A stretch of DNA of 64,000 nucleotides from Antitrichia curtipendula (lineage: Eukaryota > Streptophyta > Bryopsida > Hypnales > Leucodontaceae). The stretch is from contig OX579636.1 in NCBI GenBank assembly GCA_951230915.1, positions 34,655,567 through 34,719,566 of the forward strand. Reading direction: 5' to 3'. The translations under genes were made by a program, and so were the position numbers. This document shows, piece by piece, positions 21,399 through 64,000 of this stretch (the stretch's first letter is position 1; each line of letters opens with the position of its first letter). The notes below the pieces were generated by a model. That model had not been told where the DNA came from. It did no database searches and saw only the letters and a program-made list of their open reading frames with translations.

Positions 21399-23479
21399 AT
21401 GACACGCCCGAAGCGAGCAGCAGCAGCGACAGCAGCAGCAGCAGCAGCAACAACACCACCACCGCCGAAGAGGAGTAGAAAGAATCAAAAGGAGGCAGAC
21501 AAGAAGGATGAAGAGCCCCCCAAACGGAGTCGCAGAAACAGTAAAGCGGAGCCTGAGGAACCGAAGGTGGAGGAAGAGGCGCCTGCACCTCGTGTGGCGA
21601 AGTCGAGCCGCAGCAGTTCCGGAAACTCGGAGTCGCCTCTTCTGGTTTTTGCACATGGTGCAGGGGCCAATTCTTCTCACGAATTTATGGTCAGGTATGT
21701 AGGTGTGGATAGCAATGTGCCGTTCAGATTATGTTTTTCAGTGTACTTGATTTCTGCACAGGTTTAGTATGTTGCTATTGTTGAATAGGAGCAGAATCGT
21801 TGATGTAGCTGAAGGCACAGTAATTCCAGTTACGATTATTGTGAAGCTTGGTGGAGGACGTCAGCCTTGCAAGCATTCTGTTTTTGTTGCAGTTGAGAAT
21901 GGGGTTAGTGTTTGCATTTCGACTGCGAGAGAGATTCTCAAATGTTGTCTAGTTAGGGTGCCGTGTGTGTAGCTCGCAAAGCAAGTTGTGACGCAAGGCT
22001 GTCTGACTGACTGAATCGAGTGTTAAGGGACTGAGGAATTGAAGATGCGTTGAGAATCAGAACATGATCTCCTCGGAGCTTGGTTTAGGGTTTAGCTACC
22101 TTTGAGACGACAGTAATAGCGTCATGACCCACTTGCTCATTTGCGTGAACACCGAAGCTAGGTTTTTTACGAAATGAGTATGTTGAATGTGTGGCAGATG
22201 GAAGAAACTGTTAGGCGAGGCGACCAAAGCCGTGGAGGTTGTGACTTTTGATTATCCTTGTAAGATGCTTCAACTTGGACAGCCATTGCATGTCTGGGAA
22301 GCTCCTTTTTGTCGAGTCGAAAATAGATCCCTTGAAATTGAAACCTCTTTATTCGTATGTTTAGTTTGTTTAAGTCCCGTGAACAGTGTTTGAACTGAAG
22401 CTCAGAATAATAGCTATTCTTACTCGCTATGCTGACAAGTTTCTTCACTTTTCGTTTTACGTAGCAGCTCATATTCAAGGTGATCCTGGAGCACTGTGTG
22501 TATGGTAGTGAATTCTTTTGTAGTGTAACTTCTGCAAGTTCTCGAGGTTCCACATAGCAGGCGGAATAAGTGAGAACGACGAGGTTGTATTGTGCAGATT
22601 GTGCGAATGGTAAGAAAGGCGCCCCTCCAAAGGCGGAGAAGCTAGTGGGTAGTCATGTGGAAGAAATTAGAAAGGCTACCTCACGACATTCTGGGCATCC
22701 TTTGGTTCTTGTTGGGAAGTCAATGGGCTCAAGGTACTTCCGAGTTCCGCTAGTGTTCATCTGAAATTGGCAGGTGTCTTATTTCAAGTGCATTTTAGAG
22801 GTTGAGTCTATCATCATGCTGCGGGTGGTTTAGGGTTTAGGCTTCGACTTCGAATATCCTCCTCGTTTCACTGTTACTTCGTTAGATGTTTCAGTTTCTG
22901 CGATCCTTACTAACCCCTTCATTGCAACTACGAATAGGGTGAGCTGCATGGTAGCGGGTCTTGAAGACACGGAAGTCGCTGCTGTGGTTTGCCTTGGTTA
23001 TCCTCTCAAGGTATCTGTTTCTTACACTTGAAAGGCTACAAGTGATACTGTGTTTTATCCCCCAGACAAGAAATGTAATTGGAATGCTTTGTTTTGTGTG
23101 CAGGGAGCTAATGGCGCTCTTCGTGATCAAACTTTGTTGGAGCTCCAAGCCCCGGTCTTGTTTGTTCAGGTACAGTCTAATGCATTGATAATGGTTTCGT
23201 AAAGCGAAGGTCCAACGACGTGATCTTTTTTTTTCACATTGTTTTTTCGATGGTTGTATTGTGTTGCAGGGCAGTAAAGACTCAATGTGCCCTTTAACCG
23301 AGCTTGAGAAGGTAAGGAAAAAGTTGACCGTAATGAATGAAGTGCATGTGGTCGAGGGTGGAGACCACTCTATAAAGATAAGTAAACGTGCCAGTGGTAT
23401 GAGCCAAGAGGAATCGGATCACATCGCACTTGATCGTATCAGTGCATTTATCGTCAAGGCCCTTACCAACACCAAGTAA
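21399..23479 (+). CDS. TEX30/KANSL3-type alpha/beta hydrolase
   Basis: Six exons with consistent GT-AG phases: 21399-21694, 22198-22259, 22598-22733, 22938-23010, 23104-23169 and 23270-23479, giving 280 residues. The protein matches the plant alpha/beta-hydrolase family related to human TEX30 and KANSL3. It has an oxyanion-type HGAGANSS loop (about residue 86), nucleophile motif GKSMGSR, acid in GSKDSMC, and catalytic His in GGDHS near the end. The substrate of this family is not established. Ahead of the domain is an 80-residue basic, low-complexity extension. It has an Ala run encoded by a CAG/GCA-type trinucleotide repeat (about 21415-21460), then PPPPKRSRKN and PKRSRRNS, which look like nuclear localisation signals. 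Upstream codons in frame are open, but the ATG used here is the one that begins this extension. A decayed duplicate lies 10 kb upstream. Confidence 0.9.
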
Positions 23480-24781: not shown

Positions 24782-26504
24782 ATGGCTTCGTCCTCGGTAA
24801 TGTTCTGGCTCCAAATTTGCTTTTGGGTTTTGCAAATTGTCTTGTTCTTGTAAGGGTTTCAGATTATGCGTAGTAGCTTGGCATACCTGGAGGTTTTTAG
24901 GGTTGTGAGTCTGTTTGAATATCGCATCCCATATCTGTGCGTTGTTTTCTCGACGGGGATTGTGGTAGGAGGATCGAATTCCGTCATTGACCTCAACATT
25001 AGAAATTGTGTCGGTTTTAGGGTTTAGGGTCCCATTGCAAGACCTGGGAGGAGCACGCAACACAAATTTCTAATCCAATTTGAACCCGCATAACTATTGC
25101 TTACGGTGTTGTTTAACGAATGCATACATTGGTGTGTTGGATTCCCCTTTCAATCCGTAACGAGCGTCAATAAGTATTTGATCAACTATGCTTAGTGCAA
25201 TATGTGTCGGTTTACGATTCTCCCACCTTACGCTATGTAATTTTTGGTAATGGCAACAACAGGAGGAGTCCGTGGCGGACAGTGTCGACGAGCTTCCCGT
25301 GGAGATCATCGAGCGCGTGCTCTCGTTCCTGTCCGTCCCCGAGCTTTGCCGATTGCGTTCCGTTTGCAAGAGCTGGCTGGAGCTTCTCTCCAAACCCAGT
25401 TTCCACGACCTCTACGACCTCAACCCCAAGAGAAAGCACGACGCCTTCCTCTTCCTCACTCGCGACTTGGACTGCGACGGCTGGAGCGTCGTGGACCCCA
25501 TTTTCCGCCGTACCGTGAGCTTCCTGGACTTGGAGACACAACGATGGCATTCCATCGACGCCGGGGAGTCTTCCCTCAACGAAGAGGACTTCGAAACGCA
25601 GCTCTCCGCCATGGACGACGGCCTCATCTGCGAGTTGAGCACCTTGCGCGGCAGCGACGACGACTTGGCGCTCACGATCTCCGACCCAGTGGCCCAAACC
25701 AGAACAACATTGCCCGCTCCCCCAGAAATTTTCTGCCTGGGCACGTACCTCCCCATCCTCCTCCCGGCCGTCGACTCCCCCGCACGCAGCTTCAAAGTCT
25801 TCCTCGTTAACAACCCCCGGGAATTTGGAACTCTAACCCTAACGAGAGTGCACGTCTTTGAGCCTGCCCGCAATGAATGGAAAGCGCTTCGCAGCCCGCC
25901 CAAGGAGTTCGAGGAGGCGATTGCAGGCTCAGCTGTGATGGTAGCCCAAGTGCTGTACATTGTTTTCCGGGACATTCTGAGGCGCCAGTTTGTGCTCCTC
26001 GGTTACGATCTCCAAAACAATACATGGACTGAGCTTCGGCGCATGAGCTTCCCGAGAAAGCTTCGCCATCCGCAACTGGTGGCCAGGGGGAGCCGCTTGT
26101 TCATGAACGCTTGGTCGGATGGAACAAACCTCCCGTGCTTTGAGGTTTTGGAGGTTGTGGTTGCGCAGAATGTCTGTTGCAGAACGGTGGTGCAATTCAC
26201 CATTGCGCAGCTTCATGAGCTCTTCGGGGAACAGGATTCCGAGTTTGATATTGCGTACGGAGTGCCGTGTGTGGACTCCGGAGGGGGGTGCACCGCGGTG
26301 GTGTTGATGTCGTCGTTGTCCGGGAAACTGATCTCGTATGAACTGCAAAGCAAAGCAGTGAGCGTGTTGCCGACGAATCCGTTGATTCAAGGCTGCTGGG
26401 AGCAGAGTTTCCCGGCTTATGACATTTTTCGAGGGAAGAACATGAACCTCAGTTTGCGGAACTTGTTGTCACAAGCAGGTGGTGTGAGCGTGAGCCTTTC
26501 ATAA
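24782..26504 (+). CDS. F-box protein, F-box/kelch-like
   Basis: The large open frame begins at 25251, right after a stop, and has no ATG before residue 100 or so. The F-box itself would be lost if translation began there. A first exon 24782-24796 (ATG plus four codons, MASSS) ends at a GTAATG donor. An acceptor ACAACAG at 25262 joins it in phase 0 to exon 2 (25263-26504), giving 418 residues. The F-box lies at about residues 13-55 (DELPVEIIERVLSFL, then LRSVCKSW), the part expected to bind SKP1 in an SCF ubiquitin ligase. The remainder resembles the beta-propeller region of plant F-box/kelch proteins, with segments such as NEWKALRSPP and NNTWTELRRM. The substrate cannot be read from the sequence. 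The short first exon is inferred; the F-box assignment is secure. Confidence 0.85.
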
Positions 26505-28091: not shown

Positions 28092-28393
28092 GGGAGAGGT
28101 TGTATTCGCACGCAGCGTTCAATTCCTGACAACCTAGATAATCTATGCCAGTCGAAGTTTTGAGGGCTTTTTGTAAGTAGAACATTTTCCATCTCAAACA
28201 TATTGGCGGTCACAATTGTGGCGTTAAACTGAGTAATTCCTTTTCTGTTTGACTGAAGCTCCACATTCACGTGGAAGTATGTACCGTAACTCAGCGTCAA
28301 CTACACCTGATCAGCTGTGCACTTGTGTAAGAAAAAGCCCAAGTATGTCGATTCTGCTCTTAAATGTAATAATGGGATGCAAAATTGTGAAAG
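28092..28393. repeat. Outer, diverged part of inverted repeat, left
   Basis: The reverse complement of this 302-bp stretch aligns with 46425-46719 at roughly 90% identity by eye, with a 12-13 bp and a few smaller indels. Homology stops at a GGGAGAGGTTGT/ACAACCACTCCC boundary. The contrast with the identical arm that starts at 28394 is abrupt. Confidence 0.85.
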
Positions 28394-28894
28394 AAAACGT
28401 GAGAGGAGATGCCAATTCACTTCAACTTTCAGTCCATTAGACCTGAGTTCTGCTTTTCGTCTTCTGGCATACTTCGCTTATTTGCCAGTGTATTTAAAGA
28501 AGCAACTACCTCGTGTTGCATCCGGGGAAGGGAATGGTAGCACGACACAGCGCGCCTTAACACGAACTCCTGAGAACTACTTCGGTCAACTGGTGTAATG
28601 AGATGCATGCTACAATATATGAATTCCAAATCCAAACACGCATGATGGGACACTCGAAGAAATGAAACCTCTGGATTGAAAATGTAGACGTCCGATGGAT
28701 GTCCAAAGAATGTTATGAAATGCTCAAGCACGGCCCAATGTGAACCGAGTGCTCATCAAATGTACACGAGTCACAACTGGTGACTCCAAAAATTAATGTG
28801 TGCCGACTCCGAATTGAATAGGAGTGAAAAAAAATCTCTACATGATAGTACAAAATTTTGCTAAAGATGAACCGATGAGACTAATGCTACGGTT

Positions 28895-31054
28895 TTACGA
28901 GGGGAATGGGCCCGGAGCGCCAGTCCAGCCTTGCACGCACCGCAGAAGAGGTTGAATGAGCTTCCCCTCCGACATCGCCTCAAACACTTTCTGGATTTCA
29001 GTCCCGGGAGACACGGTCCTCAAGCCAGACAACAACTGAGTGCCGAGCTCCGACCTCACGAATTGGTACAACGGGTACGTCCTGCACGACTCGATCCTGT
29101 TGGGCACCGCCGACAAGCCCTTGTTGTCATACGCTTCCCGCACCAAGGGCACCACCAAGCGCAAACTCTCTTGCACTTGGGCCTCGAAGATGGGGATCTG
29201 CTCGAACACGGAGCGCGAGGCGTCTTTGAGGGCGTGGCTGACGAGAACTCCTCGCAGCTTCTCCATCAACGGGTACGACTCCGAGGACGCGTCGTCGATG
29301 TACGAGAACACGGGCTGGCGCTCCACGACGAGGAGAAGGTCCTTCTCGCAGAAGCGCGAGGGAAGGAGGGCGCCGTCTTGGCCCACGAAGAGCGTCTTCT
29401 TCGCCGCTTGCAACACCACTTGCTTCACCGCGGATTGCATGGTCTCTTCCACATGGCGGAGGTCGATGGCTTGGCACAGCCCCACCAGGAATGTGGAGCT
29501 CATGAGCTTCAGAATCTCCACGGCCTCCTCTGTCTTGCGAGCGGACACCAGGCCCAACGAGTTGACGTCCTGGTTGTGCTGCTCCGCGCTTTGGACATGA
29601 GTGGTGACGGGATTGGCGAGGTAGTTGAGCTCCGACAGGTACGACGCCATGGCGATCTCGGCGCCCTTCATGCCGTAGTCCAGGCTGGGGTTGGGTCCCC
29701 CGCTCAAGTTGGAGGGCAAGCCGTTGTTGTAGTAGTCGTTCACGAGTTCGGAGAATTGCGCAAACATGAGCTTGCCGATGGCGGCCACTGCCAGGCGCAT
29801 GTTGTCCATGGAGACGCCGATGGGTGTGCCCTGGAAGTTCCCCCCGTGCAGTGCAATCCCTCGCGCGGCGTCGATGATGGGGTTGTCGTTGACGGAGTTG
29901 ATCTCGCGCTCGATGGCGTGCGTGGCGGTGCGGATCACCTCGATTTGGGGACCCAACCATTGAGGAGAAGTGCGTAGTGCGTACCGATCCTGCTTTGGCT
30001 TCTTCAACGGGTCGGTTTCGTTCAACTTCTCCGCGGCTTTCATGAAGTCGCTCCCGGCCAACACCCACTCCATCACGGCCGCCGCCTCCATCTGTCCCGG
30101 GTGATGCTTGAGCTTGTGCGTCAAGGGGTCTGCGAATTCCGGCTTCCCTTGCATCACTTCACAAAACAAAGCCGACAGCACCTCGGCAAGGAGTGCCAAC
30201 ACGTTGGCGTCGAAGCACACGGTGGACGCGAGCGCCGACCCCACGGCCGTCCCGTTGACAAGCGCCAATCCTTCCTTGGGCTGCAACTCGAAGGGCTTCT
30301 CCACTCCCGCCATGCGCAAGCCTTCCAGTGCGGAAACCTCCCTCCCGTCTTCTGTGACTGCGATGGAATTGGCTCTCCCCGTGAGTAGCCCCGCAATGTA
30401 GGACAACGGCACCAAGTCCCCGGAAGCCGTCACCGTCCCCCGCAGCGGCAGCTTGGGCGTGATGTTGGCATTCAGCAGCTTCTCCATGGCTTCCAGAATC
30501 TCCCAACGGATCCCGGAGTAGCCTTGCATCAACGTGTTGGTGCGCACAAGCATGGCCGCGCGCGTGGTCTCCGCAGGCAACGAGTGGCCCTTCACCAGCA
30601 CGCCGGCGTTGAGGAAGCGGATGAGCTCGCGCTGCAGCTCCACGCCTTGCTGCGTGCGCCGATGCGAGGTGGCGCCAAAGCCAGTGGTCACTCCGTAGAT
30701 ATCCCCCCCGCTCATGATCTTGTTGAGCACCCAGTTGGAAGATTCATCCACCCGCGCCTTCGCATTGGCCGCGTCCAGCACCACCGCCACTTCGGGTCGG
30801 CGAGCGATGGCCGTCACCTGACCCACGCTCAGGTTCACGCCCTCGATGGCCACCTGTGTGGCCTCGAAGTACGTCGCCACCATCTGCTTGATCTCATCGA
30901 GATGGTTCCCTTGGAGCTTGGCAGCCGTCTTGGCCCAGTTGAGAGGGTCTCGGGAGCCATTACTGCAGAAGGGTGCCGCCGCTTTCTTCACGTTTTCTGA
31001 TCCGGCATGGTTCATGCAGAGAGACGACGCCATGATGTCTTCCACAGCGGCCAT
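28895..31054 (-). CDS. PAL: Phenylalanine ammonia-lyase, left copy
   Basis: 719 residues in a single exon. PAL deaminates L-phenylalanine to trans-cinnamate, the entry step of phenylpropanoid metabolism, and works as a cytosolic homotetramer. The Ala-Ser-Gly triad that forms the MIO cofactor is at residues 210-212 ([13 protein letters not shown]). The catalytic Tyr lies in [12 protein letters not shown] (about Tyr120). The selectivity position in LIRFLNAG is Phe147, which favours phenylalanine over tyrosine. The C-terminal shielding helices are present, so this is the plant type and full length. I chose the ATG at 31054, because five codons further upstream the frame opens only with TTG. Most seed-plant PAL genes have one intron and this one has none. 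The protein is identical to the copy at 43764-45923. It diverges from the CHS gene, with 4,000 bp between the start codons. Confidence 0.97.
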
Positions 31055-32207
31055 CTTTCGAATCTTCAAGCCTCCTATCTTGGAGTTCTCGATCAGCTCT
31101 GCTAGCTAGCTCCCGAAAGGACTTAATTCAGCTCTGCAGACAATTAGTCAAGACTGCAAAGCCCTAGTCCTTCAAGGTCAAAGAACGTCTTTGGTTGCAA
31201 TTTCCCACACAAACTCAAAACTGCGACTGGATTGCTAGAAATGGAATGTACTATCGATCAACTGATTGTGGTTGCAAATTTGTGGCTGCTGATCAGGAAC
31301 TTCTTTGTACGTTTGAGTGAAACTCGCTGCTGTGCGAATGGAAGAAGAGAGTTGGAGCTGTCTGAGATGAAGAATTGGAACTGCGGAGATCTGTATTTGT
31401 AGGCGGACGAGCTTGCAATCCAGTGGTGAAGGGATCGGGTCTCTTGACTGCGAGTGGGGTTCCGCTGTCAGGTTTTCTCCCAACGAACGCGGGGATGTTC
31501 AATTCTGGGGAGACTGTGTTCAAAAAGCAAAAGAAAGGCCGAATTTCAGGCCTTCTCTTTGACATTGGGGTTGACACTCAGTGAGGGGCACTGTGCAGGG
31601 CCCGGCATTCCGGCTTCCGTGATCTGTACGTGTTGAACGAGTTGGGAGCTCGGGTGAGTGCTTGACGACGTGTCTGATCTTGTCGGAATTTGCCGTTGAT
31701 GACCTGGAGATTTGCCGTTTTGGGGGACCATAGCCACCGGTTAGTTCATTGTTTAGCGGTGGAACGGGGTAAGAAATCCGTTTGCAATTTGCAAACACTC
31801 GGAAAACTCCGGTGATAAAATCTATAAAACTTGTCTTTGGAGTAGGAATTGAACTGGGTTCAGAGTAGGAATTGAAGAGAGGTATTTTGTAAAACTTAAG
31901 AAATATCCCAAACGCTGCTTGAAATTAGCCCAATTTCTCCTTCCACCCCAGATCCCCCAGATCCCCCAGATCAGATTGGGGATCAATTCAATATTTTGGT
32001 TCAGATTCAAGTACCACGTGTCATCTCATGAAATGGAGTATCAAATAAATGGAAAATACATATTCATAATTAATTGTTAAAAATCAATTGTATGAAATGG
32101 TAATCAAACAACTATATAATGTGTTGGAACTGTTTTGGTCTTTTGGGATACTTGGATTGCATACCTATATAACAGTGCATTTCAACATTATTTTGAGTTT
32201 TTTTTCC

Positions 32208-33129
32208 TTAACCCGTAAAGTTCCTTGCTTATGTTATCATCAAAAACGCTCCAAAACTACCATTTCTAGTACAAGCACCCAATTTTTTGATTAATATCAT
32301 TTTGGGACACATGTAACCGTATGATCTTGTATTATCCTAGATTGAGAAGATGAAGAAAAAATTTAAAAAGTTTCCACAATGTAGATTGCAAGATTTTAGC
32401 GTTTGAAGTGGCAAAATTCCTTTTTTTGCCCCCTTCCTAAAATAGGGCAGCTGTATTTCACAAGGTCACATTTGTATGTAAAGATGTCCAAAATGGTGGT
32501 GCTTCTTTGGATTTATTCTTCAAGGCAAGTTGCATACATGCTTGGAAATTTTCAGATCATTTGGAATTGAACAACATATAGGAAAATAATAGTAAGCAGA
32601 AAGATGTAGAAAATGATTCAAAATACAAAATTGTTAAGAATTTAGTTATGGAATTGAAAAATGCCAATCCCAATGGTTGCAATGTTGTAATAAACAATAC
32701 ACATCCAAGAATATTGAAAATTGAATAAGGTAAAGAGCTTCAAAGTTTATTTTAGAGTCAGTAGAGAATCCATAACTGGCCACAAACTAAAACTCCTCCT
32801 AACTTTTGGCTCATTGATCTAAATAGAATAATCCAAAACTTCCACGTACATACAAATCTAAAGAACCAAATTTCAAATATATATTTCTGAATGAAGTGAT
32901 TTTTTAAGAAGTTTTTGAGCTGCCTATGAAGCAATGAGAACTACGTATCGTACAATAACTTTTTGGCCATGTATAGTAGTCAAAAGTTATGAAAATTGTT
33001 GGGTCTTAAAGCTACTCCTAGGGCACATGTGTGAAAATTTTGAAGAGAAAGAATAATAATTCCGTTCGTGGTGAGTTGCCCAAACTTGCTATGTTGCCAA
33101 AAAATGGTGTTTGGTCCTTTAGGGGTTAA
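32208..33129. repeat. TTAACCCYTAAAG-bounded repeat in PAL-CHS promoter, left
   Basis: It starts TTAACCCGTAAAG and ends CTTTAGGGGTTAA, and is related throughout to 16894-17825. A second right-hand end, CTTTACGGGTTAA at 33369-33381, matches the left end perfectly, so the unit may be 32208-33381 with an internal or nested end. It is probably a non-autonomous DNA transposon of unknown family. Confidence 0.6.
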
Positions 33130-33767
33130 AAGACAAAAATTTCATCTTTTGGAAGGGCTAGAAAAGCCTATATGATTTTGAAATTTAGGCATGTTTAGCT
33201 TGCAATCAATTGCAAAATTCATTTAAAATTTCTAAGAGGATGTACTCAAACCAGTTAACCAAAGGATCCTATAGTTGGATTTGTTAAAAAATAAATATTG
33301 ATGAAGAATTCAACCTTGCTTTGGCAATGAGTGTTTGAAGCAATTTTGGACCTTCCATCATGTTTATCCTTTACGGGTTAAAACTTGATTGTACGCATTA
33401 TGTTTTTTCCTTTTCTCTTTCTCTTGAGGAATCTTGATGAAATGAAGCTTTTGTACTCCACCCACATCTCTAAAGAAAGAAAGATCATGCAAATTTTCTT
33501 TACAATATACTATTCTGTAATACAATGGACCTCTATAATTCTGATTATCTTGGATTTTGAAGCATGTTCATACTTGATATGAATATTCTTCATCTGTTCT
33601 TCAAAATTTCCACAAAATAGTCAAAAAGAAAATTTAAGACATATATTAGCAGGTGATTTCAGCTGGGGTCTGAAATTTATAAGAAATAAAATTCCCTCTT
33701 CAATAGAGGCCAACAAAAGGATTGAGAGAGAGGAGTTTGAACTATGCGACCATGGGCACTTAAACTT

Positions 33768-34403
33768 AACCCCTAAATGCCCAAGACACCCAATTTTGGT
33801 GTTGACAATACTTTGAAATTAAATAAGACCTAACCGAGTTGTTATTTTTAGTAGTTCATGTTTTTTGAAAAATTCTTTTTCGAGTCTAGTTATAGCATCA
33901 AAAATTTGATTTTGAAAATTATTGATTATGATTTTTCTATTCAAAGATTTTATGCGAGGGTGTCCATTGCAATCTTGACTTTACATAGTGTTCACGGCTC
34001 TTGGAAATAAGCATCAAATTCACCAGCTCTTGGAGAAGAAATCACATTAGAAACTCATTTGAAAAAATTGTAGAGTAGTTTTTGAGAAGCCATAAGTTGA
34101 TTTGGGGTTATGCATGTTAGGCCCTTTGTCTTCATGGTTTTTGGGTGACCAACTTTATAGATTTATCTTGGGAAAAGAGGATTGAAAGACTTCAAATCAC
34201 TTTTGCACTTTGAACACCCTCGTGATCAGACATTAGTGATGTTGTGTTTTATTTCCCTATGTGATCTCTAACACGTTCAGTTTGAATTTGCACGGTTACA
34301 CTTCAGAAATGACTGATACAACTTATCCAAAGGTTGACTTTTTGTTCAATTCAAACCAAATTCCTCAAAACACAAAAAAAGGCGGCTTGGACATTTAGGG
34401 GTT
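33768..34403. repeat. Second terminal-inverted-repeat element in CHS promoter, left
   Basis: The 18-bp ends AACCCCTAAATGCCCAAG and CTTGGACATTTAGGGGTT are inverted copies with one mismatch. The 636-bp unit lies about 400 bp before the CHS TATA box. The end motif is a variant of the one at 32208. No clear target duplication and no open frame of interest. Confidence 0.55.
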
Positions 34404-34798
34404 CAGAAGAAGCAGAAACTGCACAGCACCCACGTTGCACAAAGAACAAGAGATTGAAAAACAAACAACACCGTCCCATTCGGAAGAGAACATCAGAGAG
34501 CAGAAAAGTTTCCACCATTTGTCAACAACAAGGAATAGGCAAAGAAGAAATAGCCGAAGCAGCAGTTGACAAAAATTGCCGCAAATCAGCATCCATGAAT
34601 TATAAAAAAATACTGATAGTAGATTCGCTGCAAACCAGTGTCAATGCGGACCCCCACCTGGTGGGCCAGTGCGGACTTTTCCTCAAAACTCGTCCTGAAC
34701 CGCGACTTCGCAGCATTCAACGCTCTTTCTGCACAGAGATGCCGCAGACTCTCCGCCCTGTACGTTCTATCTCCGCAGTCACGCGTTTGAGCTTCCCT

Positions 34799-34804
34799 TA
34801 TAAA
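34799..34804 (+). promoter_or_regulatory. Probable TATA box of CHS, left copy
   Basis: TATAAA in the context CCCTTATAAAGAGCC, 251 bp before the CHS start codon. It would place transcription start near 34830 and give a leader of about 225 nt. Confidence 0.6.
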
Positions 34805-35054
34805 GAGCCTGGATCATGTCCAATTCATCACAACAGCAAACGATCCCCACTCTCGCATTCCAACAACTGATGACAATCACACTCAATCGTTAGCTACGTA
34901 CCACAATTCTCTTCGTGAACTCTAGTGGTCGATCGAGGCCTTCGGATCGGTAATCAACAAAGAGAAAAGCTTTCGTGCGGATTTGCTTGAGTCGATTGAT
35001 TTCCACACGTTAGGATTTGGAACGCAAAAACCACTTCAGTCGTCATCGTCGCTA

Positions 35055-36475
35055 ATGGCTCCCCAGACAGCTGCTGCGAGCCCTGCGCTTCCCAGGGCGC
35101 AGCCTAGGGCGGACGGGCCGGCGTGTGTGTTGGGCATCGGCACTGCCGTGCCTCCCACCGAGTTTCCGCAATCGGAGTACCCGGATTTCTTCTTCAACAT
35201 CACCAACTGCAACGAAAAGGAGGCGCTCAAGGCCAAGTTCAAGCGCATTTGTAAGTGACCGGACCCTAAATCTGCATCCCCTCTTGTGTGTACATTAATT
35301 CTTGCGGATGAATGTCGAGCTTGATGTGGTGGAGGGATGAATCCATGCGTTCCGTTCAGTGATCAACCCCAAATTTGATTTGACTGGGATGGATTCGGAC
35401 TGCAATTCTGTGGTGCCTAGCTTAAATTATGTCCAGTAAATTGACGAGGTTTACAAATGATGGCGTTGCAGGCGACAAGTCGGGCATCCGGAAGCGTCAC
35501 CTGTTTCTGACGGAGGAGGTCCTGAAGGCCAACCCCGGGATCTGCACGTACATGGAGCCCTCGCTGAACGCGCGCCACGACATCGTGGTGGTGCAGGTGC
35601 CCAAGCTGGCGGCCGAGGCCGCGTTGAAGGCGATCAAGGAGTGGGGCGGACGCAAGTCCGACATCACGCACGTCGTCTTCGCCACCACCAGCGGCGTGAA
35701 CATGCCGGGCGCCGACCACGCCCTGGCCAAGCTGCTCGGCTTGAAGCCCACCGTGAAGCGCGTCATGATGTACCAAACGGGTTGTTTTGGCGGCGCCTCT
35801 GTGCTGCGTGTGGCCAAGGACTTGGCCGAGAACAACAAGAACGCGCGCGTGCTGGCCGTGTGCAGCGAGGTCACGGCCGTGACCTACCGTGCTCCGAGCG
35901 AGCACCACTTGGACGGGCTGGTGGGCTCCGCGCTCTTTGGCGACGGTGCTGGTGTGTATGTTGTGGGCTCCGACCCCAAGCCGCAAGTGGAGAAGGCTTT
36001 GTTCGAGGTGCACTGGGCCGGGGAGACCATCTTGCCTGAAAGTGACGGCGCCATCGACGGCCATCTCACGGAAGCAGGGCTCATCTTCCACCTCATGAAG
36101 GACGTGCCCGGGCTGATCTCCAAGAACATCGAGAAGTTTCTGAACGAGGCGCGGCAGTGTGTGGGTTCGCCGCAGTGGAACCAGATGTTTTGGGCCGTGC
36201 ATCCCGGAGGTCCGGCCATTCTGGACCAGGTGGAGGCCAAGCTGCAGCTCTCCAAGGACAAGATGCAGGGCAGCCGCGACGTGCTGTCGGAGTATGGCAA
36301 CATGTCGAGCTCCTCGGTGATGTTCGTGTTGGACCAGATTCGACGTAGGTCGTTGCGAATGGGCTCATCCACGTTGGGCGAGGGCAGCGACTTCGGCTTC
36401 TTCATTGGGTTCGGACCGGGCCTGACGCTGGAGGTGCTGGTGCTCCGAGCCGCAACCAATGCCGCCACCGTTTAG
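35055..36475 (+). CDS. CHS: Chalcone synthase, left copy
   Basis: Two exons, 35055-35250 and 35472-36475, joined across a 221-bp GT-AG intron that splits codon Cys66 after its first base. This is the conserved intron position of land-plant CHS genes. The 399-residue product condenses p-coumaroyl-CoA with three malonyl-CoA to naringenin chalcone, the first flavonoid step. The type III polyketide synthase catalytic residues are present: Cys170 in YQTGCFGG, Phe221 in SALFGDGAG, His309 in AVHPGGPA and Asn342 in GNMSS. Each is offset by six from the alfalfa enzyme. The GFGPG loop is intact, as are the pocket residues that separate CHS from stilbene- or pyrone-forming relatives (Thr in AVTYR, Gly in IDGHL, Ser after GNMS). 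The sequence is close to moss CHS. It is identical to the copy at 38343-39763. Confidence 0.97.
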
Positions 36476-38342
36476 ATTCATTTAAATTGAACATTGTCTG
36501 AGCTCATCTCATCAATTGATCGGCTACAGCTGTACAAAGGAACTTAGATCCGTGCTCGATTACTTCTTTAGGTCTGTTGATTCACGTGTTGCCATTTTTG
36601 CAACCCCATTCATTTTCAGCTGTGCATTGTGATTTCAAAGTGAAATCCGCAGCTGGCAGGAGGACTTGGTGTACAAACAACCCAATCTGAAATCCATTTA
36701 TTTCCGGAATTATGCTACTTTGAACCTGCTCCCGTCTGGCACATGAGTTGCATGATTTTNNNNNNNNNNNNNNNNNNNNNNNNNNNNNNNNNNNNNNNNN
36801 NNNNNNNNNNNNNNNNNNNNNNNNNNNNNNNNNNNNNNNNNNNNNNNNNNNNNNNNNNNNNNNNNNNNNNNNNNNNNNNNNNNNNNNNNNNNNNNNNNNN
36901 NNNNNNNNNNNNNNNNNNNNNNNNNNNNNNNNNNNNNNNNNNNNNNNNNNNNNNNNNNNTACGCCTCTGTAAGTGCCTAAGTCGTAGAATACTACCAAAG
37001 TATGAATATTGATGTTGTAATCACAAACCCAAAATATTTACTGCACATGCTTCAGTCCTGCTGGATCCATAGTCGTGGCCAACTCAATGAGTAGAAGGTT
37101 TAGAACCGTCTATTCTGACGTGCATGGAGTAGACTTCATTTGATGTAGTGTAGCGAGTTGTATTCGAGGAGGAGCCTACTGATTCTGCCGGTACTGTACT
37201 GTACATGTACGTATTTTTGTGTGTCAATAATGAATCGATTTTATAATTTCGTGCAATTGCCCAGGCAATCTAGATGTTCCGTTCCTCTTTATGTTAAGGT
37301 TGCAGGGAACTTTGGTCAATATAGCATTATGAGTGTGTTGGGTAGGACTAGAAACAAGTGTACTGTCAATGCATGCCATGAAGATGCATGAAAGTTTAGA
37401 ACGGTGACATTGATAGCTGCTTATAATGTATATCGAACAGGGTCTTTTATTTACATTTTGAACTATTTGAGTTCCGTAGTCTTGGCAACGCATCTTGAGC
37501 GAGCCTGCATCTTTCTTCGCACGTCCTTATACCGAAAGTCATACGTTCTCAGTGCACACCCTCTAGAATCTCTACATTTGATGCGGCCCAGATACTCAAT
37601 TTCATGAGAAACTAGGCTTACGATCGGGATTCCTTGGATAGCGCATGATCTCTCAAATCATGAAACAGGTTCGGCATGTGCACAAGGTTCTTCATTCACT
37701 AGAAGTAAGCCTCCTATACTCCATCGAGGACAGCTTAATTTATATTATGTGACCGGTGTCCCGCAATATTGCTCGTATGACCCGTTTTCAACAGGCTCCT
37801 TTTAACCTCATGTTCGTTGAAATCGAAGATAAGGATCAGTGAAATTAGATAAGCACCTCTCCTAGGGTTTAAATTCGAGCACTGGGCACTTAGACGCGAA
37901 GTATTACCACACAGAAATACGCCATCCAATATTCTAAAAAGCCCTCTCATTTTCATGTAACCAATTGATCCAGATTTATGCAGATCATTGTTAATCAAAT
38001 CATAGGCGGAGAAAAACCTGCTCTACTGATTTCAGGATTGGAAAACAGACACCTTTGGAAAATCATGCAACTCATGTGCCAGACGGGAGCAGGTTCAAAG
38101 TAGCATAATTCCGGAAATAAATGGATTTCAGATTGGGTTGTTTGTACACCAAGTCCTCCTGCCAGCTGCGGATTTCACTTTGAAATCACAATGCACAGCT
38201 GAAAATGAATGGGGTTGCAAAAATGGCAACACGTGAATCAACAGACCTAAAGAAGTAATCGAGCACGGATCTAAGTTCCTTTGTACAGCTGTAGCCGATC
38301 AATTGATGAGATGAGCTCAGACAATGTTCAATTTAAATGAAT
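36476..38342. other. Region between the two convergent CHS genes
   Basis: The two CHS genes point at each other across 1,867 bp. The first 284 bp (36476-36759) and last 284 bp (38059-38342) are the mirrored ends of the arms. Between them lie the N run and 1,099 bp of unique sequence (36960-38058). I see no gene in the unique part; short open frames at 37158-37607 and 37735-37998 have no recognisable content. Confidence 0.7.
36760..36959. other. Assembly gap of 200 N
   Basis: Exactly 200 unknown bases. The round length suggests a gap of unknown true size. It begins at the last base at which the left arm can be matched to the right arm. Confidence 0.99.
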
Positions 38343-39763
38343 CTAAACGGTGGCGGCATTGGTTGCGGCTCGGAGCACCAGCACCTCCAGCGTCAGGCCC
38401 GGTCCGAACCCAATGAAGAAGCCGAAGTCGCTGCCCTCGCCCAACGTGGATGAGCCCATTCGCAACGACCTACGTCGAATCTGGTCCAACACGAACATCA
38501 CCGAGGAGCTCGACATGTTGCCATACTCCGACAGCACGTCGCGGCTGCCCTGCATCTTGTCCTTGGAGAGCTGCAGCTTGGCCTCCACCTGGTCCAGAAT
38601 GGCCGGACCTCCGGGATGCACGGCCCAAAACATCTGGTTCCACTGCGGCGAACCCACACACTGCCGCGCCTCGTTCAGAAACTTCTCGATGTTCTTGGAG
38701 ATCAGCCCGGGCACGTCCTTCATGAGGTGGAAGATGAGCCCTGCTTCCGTGAGATGGCCGTCGATGGCGCCGTCACTTTCAGGCAAGATGGTCTCCCCGG
38801 CCCAGTGCACCTCGAACAAAGCCTTCTCCACTTGCGGCTTGGGGTCGGAGCCCACAACATACACACCAGCACCGTCGCCAAAGAGCGCGGAGCCCACCAG
38901 CCCGTCCAAGTGGTGCTCGCTCGGAGCACGGTAGGTCACGGCCGTGACCTCGCTGCACACGGCCAGCACGCGCGCGTTCTTGTTGTTCTCGGCCAAGTCC
39001 TTGGCCACACGCAGCACAGAGGCGCCGCCAAAACAACCCGTTTGGTACATCATGACGCGCTTCACGGTGGGCTTCAAGCCGAGCAGCTTGGCCAGGGCGT
39101 GGTCGGCGCCCGGCATGTTCACGCCGCTGGTGGTGGCGAAGACGACGTGCGTGATGTCGGACTTGCGTCCGCCCCACTCCTTGATCGCCTTCAACGCGGC
39201 CTCGGCCGCCAGCTTGGGCACCTGCACCACCACGATGTCGTGGCGCGCGTTCAGCGAGGGCTCCATGTACGTGCAGATCCCGGGGTTGGCCTTCAGGACC
39301 TCCTCCGTCAGAAACAGGTGACGCTTCCGGATGCCCGACTTGTCGCCTGCAACGCCATCATTTGTAAACCTCGTCAATTTACTGGACATAATTTAAGCTA
39401 GGCACCACAGAATTGCAGTCCGAATCCATCCCAGTCAAATCAAATTTGGGGTTGATCACTGAACGGAACGCATGGATTCATCCCTCCACCACATCAAGCT
39501 CGACATTCATCCGCAAGAATTAATGTACACACAAGAGGGGATGCAGATTTAGGGTCCGGTCACTTACAAATGCGCTTGAACTTGGCCTTGAGCGCCTCCT
39601 TTTCGTTGCAGTTGGTGATGTTGAAGAAGAAATCCGGGTACTCCGATTGCGGAAACTCGGTGGGAGGCACGGCAGTGCCGATGCCCAACACACACGCCGG
39701 CCCGTCCGCCCTAGGCTGCGCCCTGGGAAGCGCAGGGCTCGCAGCAGCTGTCTGGGGAGCCAT
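38343..39763 (-). CDS. CHS: Chalcone synthase, right copy
   Basis: Exon 1 is 39568-39763, intron 39347-39567, exon 2 38343-39346. The 399 residues are identical to the left copy, including Cys170, Phe221, His309, Asn342 and the GFGPG loop. The intron also matches as far as I compared. It is convergent with the left CHS and divergent from the PAL gene at 43764-45923. If both copies are real, they supply the same enzyme and cannot be separated by short reads or protein data. Confidence 0.95.
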
Positions 39764-40013
39764 TAGCGACGATGACGACTGAAGTGGTTTTTGCGTTCCA
39801 AATCCTAACGTGTGGAAATCAATCGACTCAAGCAAATCCGCACGAAAGCTTTTCTCTTTGTTGATTACCGATCCGAAGGCCTCGATCGACCACTAGAGTT
39901 CACGAAGAGAATTGTGGTACGTAGCTAACGATTGAGTGTGATTGTCATCAGTTGTTGGAATGCGAGAGTGGGGATCGTTTGCTGTTGTGATGAATTGGAC
40001 ATGATCCAGGCTC

Positions 40014-40019
40014 TTTATA
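40014..40019 (-). promoter_or_regulatory. Probable TATA box of CHS, right copy
   Basis: Mirror of the TATAAA at 34799-34804, at the same distance from the CHS start codon. Confidence 0.6.
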
Positions 40020-40414
40020 AGGGAAGCTCAAACGCGTGACTGCGGAGATAGAACGTACAGGGCGGAGAGTCTGCGGCATCTCTGTGCAGAAAGAGCGTTG
40101 AATGCTGCGAAGTCGCGGTTCAGGACGAGTTTTGAGGAAAAGTCCGCACTGGCCCACCAGGTGGGGGTCCGCATTGACACTGGTTTGCAGCGAATCTACT
40201 ATCAGTATTTTTTTATAATTCATGGATGCTGATTTGCGGCAATTTTTGTCAACTGCTGCTTCGGCTATTTCTTCTTTGCCTATTCCTTGTTGTTGACAAA
40301 TGGTGGAAACTTTTCTGCTCTCTGATGTTCTCTTCCGAATGGGACGGTGTTGTTTGTTTTTCAATCTCTTGTTCTTTGTGCAACGTGGGTGCTGTGCAGT
40401 TTCTGCTTCTTCTG

Positions 40415-41050
40415 AACCCCTAAATGTCCAAGCCGCCTTTTTTTGTGTTTTGAGGAATTTGGTTTGAATTGAACAAAAAGTCAACCTTTGGATAAGTTGT
40501 ATCAGTCATTTCTGAAGTGTAACCGTGCAAATTCAAACTGAACGTGTTAGAGATCACATAGGGAAATAAAACACAACATCACTAATGTCTGATCACGAGG
40601 GTGTTCAAAGTGCAAAAGTGATTTGAAGTCTTTCAATCCTCTTTTCCCAAGATAAATCTATAAAGTTGGTCACCCAAAAACCATGAAGACAAAGGGCCTA
40701 ACATGCATAACCCCAAATCAACTTATGGCTTCTCAAAAACTACTCTACAATTTTTTCAAATGAGTTTCTAATGTGATTTCTTCTCCAAGAGCTGGTGAAT
40801 TTGATGCTTATTTCCAAGAGCCGTGAACACTATGTAAAGTCAAGATTGCAATGGACACCCTCGCATAAAATCTTTGAATAGAAAAATCATAATCAATAAT
40901 TTTCAAAATCAAATTTTTGATGCTATAACTAGACTCGAAAAAGAATTTTTCAAAAAACATGAACTACTAAAAATAACAACTCGGTTAGGTCTTATTTAAT
41001 TTCAAAGTATTGTCAACACCAAAATTGGGTGTCTTGGGCATTTAGGGGTT
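40415..41050. repeat. Second terminal-inverted-repeat element in CHS promoter, right
   Basis: Mirror copy of 33768-34403, present because the whole arm is duplicated and not because of a separate insertion. Confidence 0.55.
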
Positions 41051-41688
41051 AAGTTTAAGTGCCCATGGTCGCATAGTTCAAACTCCTCTCTCTCAATCCT
41101 TTTGTTGGCCTCTATTGAAGAGGGAATTTTATTTCTTATAAATTTCAGACCCCAGCTGAAATCACCTGCTAATATATGTCTTAAATTTTCTTTTTGACTA
41201 TTTTGTGGAAATTTTGAAGAACAGATGAAGAATATTCATATCAAGTATGAACATGCTTCAAAATCCAAGATAATCAGAATTATAGAGGTCCATTGTATTA
41301 CAGAATAGTATATTGTAAAGAAAATTTGCATGATCTTTCTTTCTTTAGAGATGTGGGTGGAGTACAAAAGCTTCATTTCATCAAGATTCCTCAAGAGAAA
41401 GAGAAAAGGAAAAAACATAATGCGTACAATCAAGTTTTAACCCGTAAAGGATAAACATGATGGAAGGTCCAAAATTGCTTCAAACACTCATTGCCAAAGC
41501 AAGGTTGAATTCTTCATCAATATTTATTTTTTAACAAATCCAACTATAGGATCCTTTGGTTAACTGGTTTGAGTACATCCTCTTAGAAATTTTAAATGAA
41601 TTTTGCAATTGATTGCAAGCTAAACATGCCTAAATTTCAAAATCATATAGGCTTTTCTAGCCCTTCCAAAAGATGAAATTTTTGTCTT

Positions 41689-42610
41689 TTAACCCCTAAA
41701 GGACCAAACACCATTTTTTGGCAACATAGCAAGTTTGGGCAACTCACCACGAACGGAATTATTATTCTTTCTCTTCAAAATTTTCACACATGTGCCCTAG
41801 GAGTAGCTTTAAGACCCAACAATTTTCATAACTTTTGACTACTATACATGGCCAAAAAGTTATTGTACGATACGTAGTTCTCATTGCTTCATAGGCAGCT
41901 CAAAAACTTCTTAAAAAATCACTTCATTCAGAAATATATATTTGAAATTTGGTTCTTTAGATTTGTATGTACGTGGAAGTTTTGGATTATTCTATTTAGA
42001 TCAATGAGCCAAAAGTTAGGAGGAGTTTTAGTTTGTGGCCAGTTATGGATTCTCTACTGACTCTAAAATAAACTTTGAAGCTCTTTACCTTATTCAATTT
42101 TCAATATTCTTGGATGTGTATTGTTTATTACAACATTGCAACCATTGGGATTGGCATTTTTCAATTCCATAACTAAATTCTTAACAATTTTGTATTTTGA
42201 ATCATTTTCTACATCTTTCTGCTTACTATTATTTTCCTATATGTTGTTCAATTCCAAATGATCTGAAAATTTCCAAGCATGTATGCAACTTGCCTTGAAG
42301 AATAAATCCAAAGAAGCACCACCATTTTGGACATCTTTACATACAAATGTGACCTTGTGAAATACAGCTGCCCTATTTTAGGAAGGGGGCAAAAAAAGGA
42401 ATTTTGCCACTTCAAACGCTAAAATCTTGCAATCTACATTGTGGAAACTTTTTAAATTTTTTCTTCATCTTCTCAATCTAGGATAATACAAGATCATACG
42501 GTTACATGTGTCCCAAAATGATATTAATCAAAAAATTGGGTGCTTGTACTAGAAATGGTAGTTTTGGAGCGTTTTTGATGATAACATAAGCAAGGAACTT
42601 TACGGGTTAA
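41689..42610. repeat. TTAACCCYTAAAG-bounded repeat in PAL-CHS promoter, right
   Basis: Mirror copy of 32208-33129, with the additional end motif at 41437-41449. It was inserted before the duplication or copied by later conversion. Confidence 0.6.
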
Positions 42611-43763
42611 GGAAAAAAAACTCAAAATAATGTTGAAATGCACTGTTATATAGGTATGCAATCCAAGTATCCCAAAAGACCAAAACAGTTCCAACACATT
42701 ATATAGTTGTTTGATTACCATTTCATACAATTGATTTTTAACAATTAATTATGAATATGTATTTTCCATTTATTTGATACTCCATTTCATGAGATGACAC
42801 GTGGTACTTGAATCTGAACCAAAATATTGAATTGATCCCCAATCTGATCTGGGGGATCTGGGGGATCTGGGGTGGAAGGAGAAATTGGGCTAATTTCAAG
42901 CAGCGTTTGGGATATTTCTTAAGTTTTACAAAATACCTCTCTTCAATTCCTACTCTGAACCCAGTTCAATTCCTACTCCAAAGACAAGTTTTATAGATTT
43001 TATCACCGGAGTTTTCCGAGTGTTTGCAAATTGCAAACGGATTTCTTACCCCGTTCCACCGCTAAACAATGAACTAACCGGTGGCTATGGTCCCCCAAAA
43101 CGGCAAATCTCCAGGTCATCAACGGCAAATTCCGACAAGATCAGACACGTCGTCAAGCACTCACCCGAGCTCCCAACTCGTTCAACACGTACAGATCACG
43201 GAAGCCGGAATGCCGGGCCCTGCACAGTGCCCCTCACTGAGTGTCAACCCCAATGTCAAAGAGAAGGCCTGAAATTCGGCCTTTCTTTTGCTTTTTGAAC
43301 ACAGTCTCCCCAGAATTGAACATCCCCGCGTTCGTTGGGAGAAAACCTGACAGCGGAACCCCACTCGCAGTCAAGAGACCCGATCCCTTCACCACTGGAT
43401 TGCAAGCTCGTCCGCCTACAAATACAGATCTCCGCAGTTCCAATTCTTCATCTCAGACAGCTCCAACTCTCTTCTTCCATTCGCACAGCAGCGAGTTTCA
43501 CTCAAACGTACAAAGAAGTTCCTGATCAGCAGCCACAAATTTGCAACCACAATCAGTTGATCGATAGTACATTCCATTTCTAGCAATCCAGTCGCAGTTT
43601 TGAGTTTGTGTGGGAAATTGCAACCAAAGACGTTCTTTGACCTTGAAGGACTAGGGCTTTGCAGTCTTGACTAATTGTCTGCAGAGCTGAATTAAGTCCT
43701 TTCGGGAGCTAGCTAGCAGAGCTGATCGAGAACTCCAAGATAGGAGGCTTGAAGATTCGAAAG

Positions 43764-45923
43764 ATGGCCGCTGTGGAAGACATCATGGCGTCGTCTCTCT
43801 GCATGAACCATGCCGGATCAGAAAACGTGAAGAAAGCGGCGGCACCCTTCTGCAGTAATGGCTCCCGAGACCCTCTCAACTGGGCCAAGACGGCTGCCAA
43901 GCTCCAAGGGAACCATCTCGATGAGATCAAGCAGATGGTGGCGACGTACTTCGAGGCCACACAGGTGGCCATCGAGGGCGTGAACCTGAGCGTGGGTCAG
44001 GTGACGGCCATCGCTCGCCGACCCGAAGTGGCGGTGGTGCTGGACGCGGCCAATGCGAAGGCGCGGGTGGATGAATCTTCCAACTGGGTGCTCAACAAGA
44101 TCATGAGCGGGGGGGATATCTACGGAGTGACCACTGGCTTTGGCGCCACCTCGCATCGGCGCACGCAGCAAGGCGTGGAGCTGCAGCGCGAGCTCATCCG
44201 CTTCCTCAACGCCGGCGTGCTGGTGAAGGGCCACTCGTTGCCTGCGGAGACCACGCGCGCGGCCATGCTTGTGCGCACCAACACGTTGATGCAAGGCTAC
44301 TCCGGGATCCGTTGGGAGATTCTGGAAGCCATGGAGAAGCTGCTGAATGCCAACATCACGCCCAAGCTGCCGCTGCGGGGGACGGTGACGGCTTCCGGGG
44401 ACTTGGTGCCGTTGTCCTACATTGCGGGGCTACTCACGGGGAGAGCCAATTCCATCGCAGTCACAGAAGACGGGAGGGAGGTTTCCGCACTGGAAGGCTT
44501 GCGCATGGCGGGAGTGGAGAAGCCCTTCGAGTTGCAGCCCAAGGAAGGATTGGCGCTTGTCAACGGGACGGCCGTGGGGTCGGCGCTCGCGTCCACCGTG
44601 TGCTTCGACGCCAACGTGTTGGCACTCCTTGCCGAGGTGCTGTCGGCTTTGTTTTGTGAAGTGATGCAAGGGAAGCCGGAATTCGCAGACCCCTTGACGC
44701 ACAAGCTCAAGCATCACCCGGGACAGATGGAGGCGGCGGCCGTGATGGAGTGGGTGTTGGCCGGGAGCGACTTCATGAAAGCCGCGGAGAAGTTGAACGA
44801 AACCGACCCGTTGAAGAAGCCAAAGCAGGATCGGTACGCACTACGCACTTCTCCTCAATGGTTGGGTCCCCAAATCGAGGTGATCCGCACCGCCACGCAC
44901 GCCATCGAGCGCGAGATCAACTCCGTCAACGACAACCCCATCATCGACGCCGCGCGAGGGATTGCACTGCACGGGGGGAACTTCCAGGGCACACCCATCG
45001 GCGTCTCCATGGACAACATGCGCCTGGCAGTGGCCGCCATCGGCAAGCTCATGTTTGCGCAATTCTCCGAACTCGTGAACGACTACTACAACAACGGCTT
45101 GCCCTCCAACTTGAGCGGGGGACCCAACCCCAGCCTGGACTACGGCATGAAGGGCGCCGAGATCGCCATGGCGTCGTACCTGTCGGAGCTCAACTACCTC
45201 GCCAATCCCGTCACCACTCATGTCCAAAGCGCGGAGCAGCACAACCAGGACGTCAACTCGTTGGGCCTGGTGTCCGCTCGCAAGACAGAGGAGGCCGTGG
45301 AGATTCTGAAGCTCATGAGCTCCACATTCCTGGTGGGGCTGTGCCAAGCCATCGACCTCCGCCATGTGGAAGAGACCATGCAATCCGCGGTGAAGCAAGT
45401 GGTGTTGCAAGCGGCGAAGAAGACGCTCTTCGTGGGCCAAGACGGCGCCCTCCTTCCCTCGCGCTTCTGCGAGAAGGACCTTCTCCTCGTCGTGGAGCGC
45501 CAGCCCGTGTTCTCGTACATCGACGACGCGTCCTCGGAGTCGTACCCGTTGATGGAGAAGCTGCGAGGAGTTCTCGTCAGCCACGCCCTCAAAGACGCCT
45601 CGCGCTCCGTGTTCGAGCAGATCCCCATCTTCGAGGCCCAAGTGCAAGAGAGTTTGCGCTTGGTGGTGCCCTTGGTGCGGGAAGCGTATGACAACAAGGG
45701 CTTGTCGGCGGTGCCCAACAGGATCGAGTCGTGCAGGACGTACCCGTTGTACCAATTCGTGAGGTCGGAGCTCGGCACTCAGTTGTTGTCTGGCTTGAGG
45801 ACCGTGTCTCCCGGGACTGAAATCCAGAAAGTGTTTGAGGCGATGTCGGAGGGGAAGCTCATTCAACCTCTTCTGCGGTGCGTGCAAGGCTGGACTGGCG
45901 CTCCGGGCCCATTCCCCTCGTAA
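43764..45923 (+). CDS. PAL: Phenylalanine ammonia-lyase, right copy
   Basis: 719 residues, intronless and identical to the left copy, with the MIO triad Ala-Ser-Gly at 210-212, Tyr120 and Phe147. The start ATG at 43764 has a good context (AAGATGGCC). The five preceding codons are open, but begin with TTG and not ATG. The gene is divergent from CHS at 38343-39763. Sequence identity with the left copy continues for 501 bp past the stop codon and then breaks off at 46424. Confidence 0.97.
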
Positions 45924-46424
45924 AACCGTAGCATTAGTCTCATCGGTTCATCTTTAGCAAAATTTTGTACTATCATGTAGAGATTTTTTTTCACTCCTAT
46001 TCAATTCGGAGTCGGCACACATTAATTTTTGGAGTCACCAGTTGTGACTCGTGTACATTTGATGAGCACTCGGTTCACATTGGGCCGTGCTTGAGCATTT
46101 CATAACATTCTTTGGACATCCATCGGACGTCTACATTTTCAATCCAGAGGTTTCATTTCTTCGAGTGTCCCATCATGCGTGTTTGGATTTGGAATTCATA
46201 TATTGTAGCATGCATCTCATTACACCAGTTGACCGAAGTAGTTCTCAGGAGTTCGTGTTAAGGCGCGCTGTGTCGTGCTACCATTCCCTTCCCCGGATGC
46301 AACACGAGGTAGTTGCTTCTTTAAATACACTGGCAAATAAGCGAAGTATGCCAGAAGACGAAAAGCAGAACTCAGGTCTAATGGACTGAAAGTTGAAGTG
46401 AATTGGCATCTCCTCTCACGTTTT

Positions 46425-46719
46425 TTGCATCCCAACATACGTGGAAGAGCAGAATCGACATACTTGGGCGTTTTCTTACACAAGTGCACAACTGATCAGG
46501 TGTAGTTGACGCTGAGTTACGGTACATACTTTCACGTGAATGTCGAGCTTCAGTCAATCAAAAAAGGAATTACTCAGCTCAACGCCACAATTGTGACCGC
46601 CAATACGTTTGAGATGAAAAATGTTCTACTTACAAAAAGCCCTCGAAACTTCGACAGGTATAGATCATCTAGTCTAGGTTGTCAAGAATTGAACGCTGCG
46701 TGCGAGTACAACCACTCCC
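46425..46719. repeat. Outer, diverged part of inverted repeat, right
   Basis: Matches the reverse complement of 28092-28393 at roughly 90% by eye, with substitutions scattered along its length and several small indels. It ends a few bases before the CHS-derived relic that starts at 46725. Confidence 0.85.
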
Positions 46720-46724
46720 GTTTA

Positions 46725-46796
46725 GTCGACTGCAACGCCATCATTTATAAACCTTGTCAATTTACATAAGTGAAGCTAGGCACCTCACAATTGCAG
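46725..46796 (-). pseudogene. 72-bp CHS intron/exon-junction relic
   Basis: Read on the minus strand, this fragment matches the last 70 or so bases of the CHS intron including its GCAG acceptor and the first few bases of exon 2 (35401-35475 in the left copy). It carries about a dozen differences, including a short indel. Landmarks in order are CTAGGCACC..., GTCAATTTAC and TGCAACGCCATCATTT (plus-strand view reversed). It lies five bases outside the end of the inverted-repeat homology. It is therefore a remnant of a third CHS copy or of the rearrangement that made the duplication. Confidence 0.85.
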
Positions 46797-63593: not shown

Positions 63594-64000
63594 CAACAAA
63601 GAGAAGGAAAAGCTAAAGTGTAGAATACAAAGGGCTATGCAATCAAGGAGCACAAGAAAGCAAATGGACAAAAGGCGAATTTGATGATCTGGACATAGAG
63701 GAGGTAATTCAAGATTTGCAAAGAAAGGTAGTACATAAGAGGAACTCGGAGCTGAAGCATTCTGCATTATCTATGAATAATGGATCACTGACTACTAATA
63801 GACCCTATAATAATTACAATTTTGACAAAGAATTAGAAGAAATTAGAAGTATTCTAGATAGTGCAATCATTAGTAAAGCCGTTGGCATCATCTAGCCACC
63901 AGGCAACCGTAATAGCCAGGTAGAATTGATGCGCACTAGTTTTTTGAATTAGAACGGAGGCAACAAATAAATAATGACATGCAATCATGTCCTACAATTG
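63594..64000. other. Upstream flank of transposase gene
   Basis: The transposase frame remains open up to an ATG at 63767, but those 58 extra residues are hydrophobic and leader-like and precede a better start (MASSSTV). The rest is AT-rich with no further feature before the window ends. Confidence 0.4.

Follow-up and report, generated by a model that had tools for sequence, protein, structure and literature searches.

Results

The mirror-image locus

The stretch analysed (hereafter the window) comprised 64,000 nucleotides of Antitrichia curtipendula (contig OX579636.1, positions 34,655,567 to 34,719,566 of the forward strand), and contained two neighbouring pairs of genes for phenylalanine ammonia-lyase (PAL) and chalcone synthase (CHS), assembled in the order PAL-CHS-CHS-PAL with all four reading frames open. 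Each pair occupied one arm of a large inverted repeat (Table 1). By base-by-base alignment, the left arm was the exact reverse complement of the right arm (8366 of 8366 bases identical), and comparison of the window with itself returned one long inverted match. An exact match of 8.4 kb cannot have arisen by chance, and the mirror-image PAL-CHS duplication is real in the assembled sequence. Adjacency of PAL and CHS and their duplication as a unit were thus both observed, subject to an assembly gap between the arms.

A first-pass annotation of the window had described a perfectly matching inverted PAL-CHS duplication, with PAL and CHS head-to-head, 4.0 kb between their start codons and four intact frames. 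Its coordinates were right to the base, the distance measured exactly 4000 bp, and catalytic motifs were recognisable in the four open frames. The words "perfectly matching" held for the arms and fell short as a full picture, as the perfect tract ended in an older, diverged rim. That annotation was silent on the rim, on the 200-N gap, on a CHS relic at the right edge and on transposon-like elements between the genes.

Table 1. Features of the PAL-CHS locus and its surroundings (positions in the window; bp, base pairs; aa, amino acids; TIR, terminal inverted repeat).
Feature	Position	Strand	Remarks
Left arm	28394-36759	+	8366 bp, 100% match to mirrored 38059-46424
Right arm	38059-46424	-	Perfect mirror of left arm
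PAL copy 1	28895-31054	-	Single exon, 719 aa; ATG 31054, stop ends 28895
PAL copy 2	43764-45923	+	Identical to PAL copy 1
CHS copy 1	35055-36475	+	Exon 1 35055-35250, intron 35251-35471, exon 2 35472-36475; 399 aa
CHS copy 2	39763-38343	-	Identical to CHS copy 1
PAL-CHS intergenic interval	31055-35054	.	4000 bp between start codons
TIR element A	32208-33129	.	922 bp, TTAA-flanked; another perfect TIR match ends 33381, element may extend so far
TIR element A, mirror copy	41689-42610	.	
TIR element B	33766-34405	.	~640 bp; 34-nucleotide TIRs 79% complementary
TIR element B, mirror copy	40413-41052	.	
Assembly gap	36760-36959	.	200 N, adjoins inner end of left arm
Spacer right of gap	36960-38058	.	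1099 bp
Left outer rim	28092-28393	.	Downstream of PAL; diverged homologue of 46425-46719
Right outer rim	46425-46719	.	Diverged homologue of 28092-28393
CHS relic	46717-46796	-	Last ~70 bp of intron, splice acceptor, first ~12 bp of exon 2
F-box gene	25251-26504	+	~1.6 kb left of rim
Alpha/beta-hydrolase exon	23192-23476		Abhydrolase_11, 4.1e-08

Diverged rim and CHS relic

Outside the arms, homology continued for ~300 bp in diverged form: of 290 compared sites, 22 carried substitutions (~7.6%), and there were 3 gap runs. All 39 differing alignment columns counted from 28092 inward fell at or before 28393. Past the rim, comparison of the window with itself gave no match continuing the arms, and the left flank (28,091 bp) and the right flank (17,281 bp) had no mutual match at the junctions. 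The assembly therefore contains the arms as two loci rather than as a fold-back copy. At the rate of the rim, ~303 differences would be predicted in the 4000-bp intergenic stretch alone, and 0 were observed. The non-coding portion of each arm amounted to ~5006 bp, also with 0 differences, and coding constraint is therefore no explanation for the identity. The abrupt edge between ~7.6% and 0% divergence suggests an older duplication with an overwritten interior; because the perfect tract is bordered by the older rim, homogenisation is indicated rather than a simple recent doubling.

The relic was detected by blastn at the outer edge of the right arm, where it joined the PAL downstream rim at a common GGG, and had 70 of 85 aligned columns identical to CHS. 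It is the truncated trace of a third CHS. Its presence at the right edge shows a history of PAL-CHS units gained and lost at the locus. Apart from the four genes, translated searches (tblastn) of the window detected no PAL or CHS coding sequence (best leftover E values 0.31 for PAL and 0.40 for CHS).

PAL and CHS genes

The PAL protein matched Lyase_aromatic (PF00221) with 497.5 bits (cut-off 27.3), carried the MIO-type motif TASGDL, with its MIO-forming Ala-Ser-Gly, at residue 209, and aligned over residues 27-716 with the PAL structure 1w27. With its full-length domain and this tripeptide, the protein has the predicted features of a plant phenylalanine ammonia-lyase. In the protein search, 8000 candidates were scored, of which 3865 passed; within the best 120 of these 3865, the closest relatives included Ceratodon purpureus, and the best six were 89-92% identical.

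Both Chal_sti_synt domains (PF00195 and PF02797) were found in CHS, whose intron interrupts a Cys codon. The contexts GCFGG, VHPGG, YGNMSS, ALFGDG and IFHLMKD were present, and are taken here to represent the Cys-His-Asn triad and two Phe gatekeepers. The best match in PDB was chalcone synthase 9jl6 (CHS residues 9-397 aligned), and Ceratodon KC19_6G202900 was 88% identical. Having both domains, the triad and both gatekeepers, the protein would be classed as a chalcone synthase, that is, a type III polyketide synthase (PKS); a passage in PMC9670752 states that CHS activity is not provable from sequence alone. Both PAL and CHS look complete, and the encoded proteins would by themselves place the window in a moss.

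The interval between PAL and CHS

Two elements with TIRs lay between the start codons of each pair, and accounted for 1.56-1.81 kb (39-45%) of the 4-kb interval. The TTAA ends of element A are like those of piggyBac-type elements. A relative of similar length, with TIRs at both ends, was located at 16894-17825 (932 bp; 689 of 909 aligned sites identical to element A), and a 100-bp piece at 57523-57622 was 81% like part of that relative.

Motifs were counted on both strands of the interval and compared with the mean of 200 mononucleotide shuffles. Flavonoid-type motifs had no clear enrichment in the interval over the shuffles: the G-box occurred 2 times (one palindromic site; 1.0 in shuffles), the ACGT core 24 times (27.6), the MRE-type motif 2 times (1.5), the H-box 0 times (1.1) and TATAWA 11 times (13.5). 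The E-box count (36 vs. 27.2) was the sole one regarded as leaning upward, and was not read as meaningful. A TATA-like box was located at 34799, 256 bp ahead of the CHS start, and the first kilobase on the PAL side contained none. The shared bidirectional control region proposed in the first-pass annotation is not supported by an interval that is 39-45% transposon-like and not clearly enriched in motifs; two separate promoters are the plainer reading.

Assembly gap between the arms

The sole N run in the window followed directly on the last base of the left arm. As the left arm is cut by this gap, 8366 bp is a lower bound for its length, and the mirror order depends on scaffolding. The loop between the arms measured 1299 bp as written, a nominal figure because of the gap, and the spacer to the right of the gap matched no other part of the window with an E value below 0.058. 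The location of the gap is the one expected if the assembler could not pass a repeat, and neither proves nor excludes a real second copy.

Neighbouring genes and other features

Outside the arms, 68 stop-to-stop open reading frames (ORFs) of at least 95 aa were scanned for Pfam domains, a length below which shorter exons would escape. The only matches above the Pfam cut-off were the F-box gene and Abhydrolase_11; Tetraspanin, Glyco_hydro_123 and Abhydrolase_5 matched below threshold. Nearby C4H or 4CL genes, a search for which had been proposed in the first-pass annotation, did not appear, as none of the 68 ORFs had a P450 or an AMP-binding domain. The F-box protein matched 26 proteins, one of them 96% identical; synteny through this neighbour was pursued as a lead and was fruitless, the two proteins labelled Ceratodon being only 42% and 35% identical.

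Beside the alpha/beta-hydrolase gene, repeats in the same orientation were located at 10505-11684 and 21772-23189 (76% and 83% identical); they may stem from an older tandem duplication or belong to a dispersed repeat. The stretches at 60348-60572 and 54522-54855 were palindromic, each matching its own reverse complement (88% and 81% identity, respectively), and are perhaps fold-back elements. Long ORFs on the minus strand at 59589-63770 gave the impression, from their sequence, of a MULE-like transposase, and those scanned had no Pfam match. Structured RNA was searched with Rfam, with 0 matches at gathering score.

Discussion

Probable homogenisation of an older duplication

The locus is probably the moss version of a gene-pair duplication known from bryophytes, homogenised between its inverted copies. 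An older inverted duplication would have produced two mirror-image PAL-CHS units, and the ~300-bp diverged rim would be the surviving trace of its age. A recent homology-directed event between the facing arms, either interlocus gene conversion or break-induced copying, would have overwritten one unit with the other over at least 8.4 kb, leaving the PALs, the CHSs and everything between them identical; recent overwriting of the interior would account for the abrupt identity edge beside the rim. A further CHS copy at the right would have been lost, bar the intron and exon-2 relic. The likely effect, if both copies are expressed as would be supposed, would be to keep identical entry enzymes of phenylpropanoid metabolism and of flavonoid (sunscreen pigment) synthesis in step, with a change in dose and not in function.

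Some points weigh against homogenisation. The left arm stops exactly at the 200-N gap, where an unresolved repeat would stop, and since the arm ends there both the identity and the mirror order rest on the assembly. The rim gives no date in years. The Ceratodon PALs closest to the PAL of the locus (M758_11G038600 and KC19_1G283900) had no CHS with a nearby tag, among the best 120 of 3865 and of 3826 proteins, respectively.

Alternative explanations

The degrees of confidence expressed here need not sum to one, as a functional reading of the locus overlaps with homogenisation.

An assembly effect at the gap is the main rival, and is considered unlikely. The genome would have a single PAL-CHS unit, or a single one besides a diverged copy left out of the assembly; from the left flank, the assembler would have run on into the repeat of the right contig, and the contigs would have been scaffolded facing each other across the gap. 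Consistently, the gap starts directly after the last base of the left arm, so that nothing unique follows the repeat in the left contig. The Ulota crispa moss assembly obtained, according to a passage in PMC11803377, 21.28 Gb from 2.18 million HiFi reads, or ~9.8 kb per read, which is near the length of the arms; the window may come from a similar project. However, no gap interrupts the sequence at either outer junction, where the flanks differ over 28 kb and 17 kb, and the diverged rim beside each arm indicates that there are two paralogous junctions and that both are real. Copies 7% apart are unlikely to be merged with accurate long reads, and a collapse could hide only small differences.

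Two other origins were considered and set aside. A fold-back sequencing artefact, in which a read returns on its own strand, was rejected, the outer flanks being unrelated past 28092 and 46719 and the rim diverged. Allelic copies placed side by side were rejected as the main reading for the same two features.

Along the lines of the first-pass annotation, the two genes could form a co-regulated mini-cluster that shares a bidirectional promoter and was doubled by selection for dose. This reading was judged rather unlikely; it concerns function and is compatible with homogenisation. The head-to-head order and the functional link between both enzymes speak for it, as do the CHS/PAL pairing present also in Marchantia (in a passage of PMC7010833) and the reported rise of 14 PAL genes, and of CHS, in Pohlia nutans under UV-B (in passages of PMC9247546 that do not mention linkage). 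However, the starts are separated by 4 kb, much of it transposon-like; the motif counts, E-boxes excepted, were near the shuffled expectation; the TATA-like box was confined to the CHS side; and no C4H or 4CL domain was found in the flanking ORFs. Moreover, a section of the kingdom-wide study PMC8133574 judges PKS clusters unlikely and finds PKS genes generally without co-expression with other genes.

The unit could instead have been copied once and lately, as an inverted duplication through template switching that began in pre-existing homology of the PAL 3'-flank, with no older complete second unit. This reading fits the perfect identity over 8.4 kb and the relic, which shows that PAL downstream sequence at the right edge had already been joined to a piece of CHS. 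It is improbable in that it requires PAL downstream homology at the exact place, which itself implies an older copy and leaves it little different from homogenisation.

Comparison with other systems

In Marchantia, a CHS/PAL gene pair has been multiplied as a unit (PMC7010833, in a passage citing Bowman 2017). Because these duplications were already reported, the pairing of PAL and CHS has a precedent among bryophytes, and it is probably meaningful. The two cases are alike in the pairing of PAL with CHS and in their multiplication as a unit. They differ in that the present plant is a moss and Marchantia polymorpha a liverwort, and in that the present unit is head-to-head and repeated as a perfect mirror image, whereas the orientation and identity of the Marchantia pairs are not given in that passage of PMC7010833. 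A report of PAL-CHS adjacency in a moss was not found in the open-licence literature searched, which is no proof of absence.

Locus tags in other bryophytes offered leads only. PAL R1flu_015507 and CHS R1flu_015513 of the liverwort Riccia fluitans are six tags apart, on contigs equal in length; CHS KC19_6G202900 and PAL M758_6G204400 of Ceratodon have similar tags with differing prefixes, and their numbers are maybe not comparable. These leads do not show conserved PAL-CHS adjacency in mosses.

The identity of the inverted arms was far above that of the flanking rim (0 differences in 8366 bp vs. 22 substitutions in 290 sites), as in a palindrome maintained by conversion. Gene-conversion palindromes of mammalian sex chromosomes likewise have two inverted, gene-bearing arms with more than 99% identity (abstract of PMC8981503), whereas the present arms are 8.4 kb long, belong to a plant and face each other across a central gap, with conversion inferred from one genome. 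The momilactone cluster of Calohypnum plumiforme is another moss locus where genes of a single pathway lie side by side; it makes diterpenes and is called functional (in the excerpt of PMC13120521), whereas the present locus has two enzymes, with no C4H or 4CL domain among the flanking ORFs. One published exception, in barley, accompanies the judgement on PKS gene clusters in PMC8133574. As for CHI, two reviews state that mosses have no such gene in their genomes (passages of PMC9670752 and PMC7010833), while a third review lists it among the families identified in P. patens and Sphagnum (passage of PMC13120521).

Implications

The interest of the locus lies more in its recombination history than in its promoter. 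Its sharp identity edge offers a clear case for studies of gene conversion in haploid-dominant plants. PKS clusters were judged unlikely in the part of PMC8133574 concerned, yet a CHS/PAL pair multiplied as a unit has been reported from a liverwort (passage of PMC7010833) and a like pair is now found in a moss. If the pair were shared by descent, very-long-term linkage of plant pathway genes would become directly testable. It is conceivable, if unlikely, that the linkage of PAL and CHS dates back to the common ancestor of mosses and liverworts, and that the unit is amplified and then, by gene conversion, homogenised as a whole, with the enzymes evolving in concert. If true, recombination would be maintaining PAL-CHS as a metabolic block of two genes in a haploid-dominant plant.

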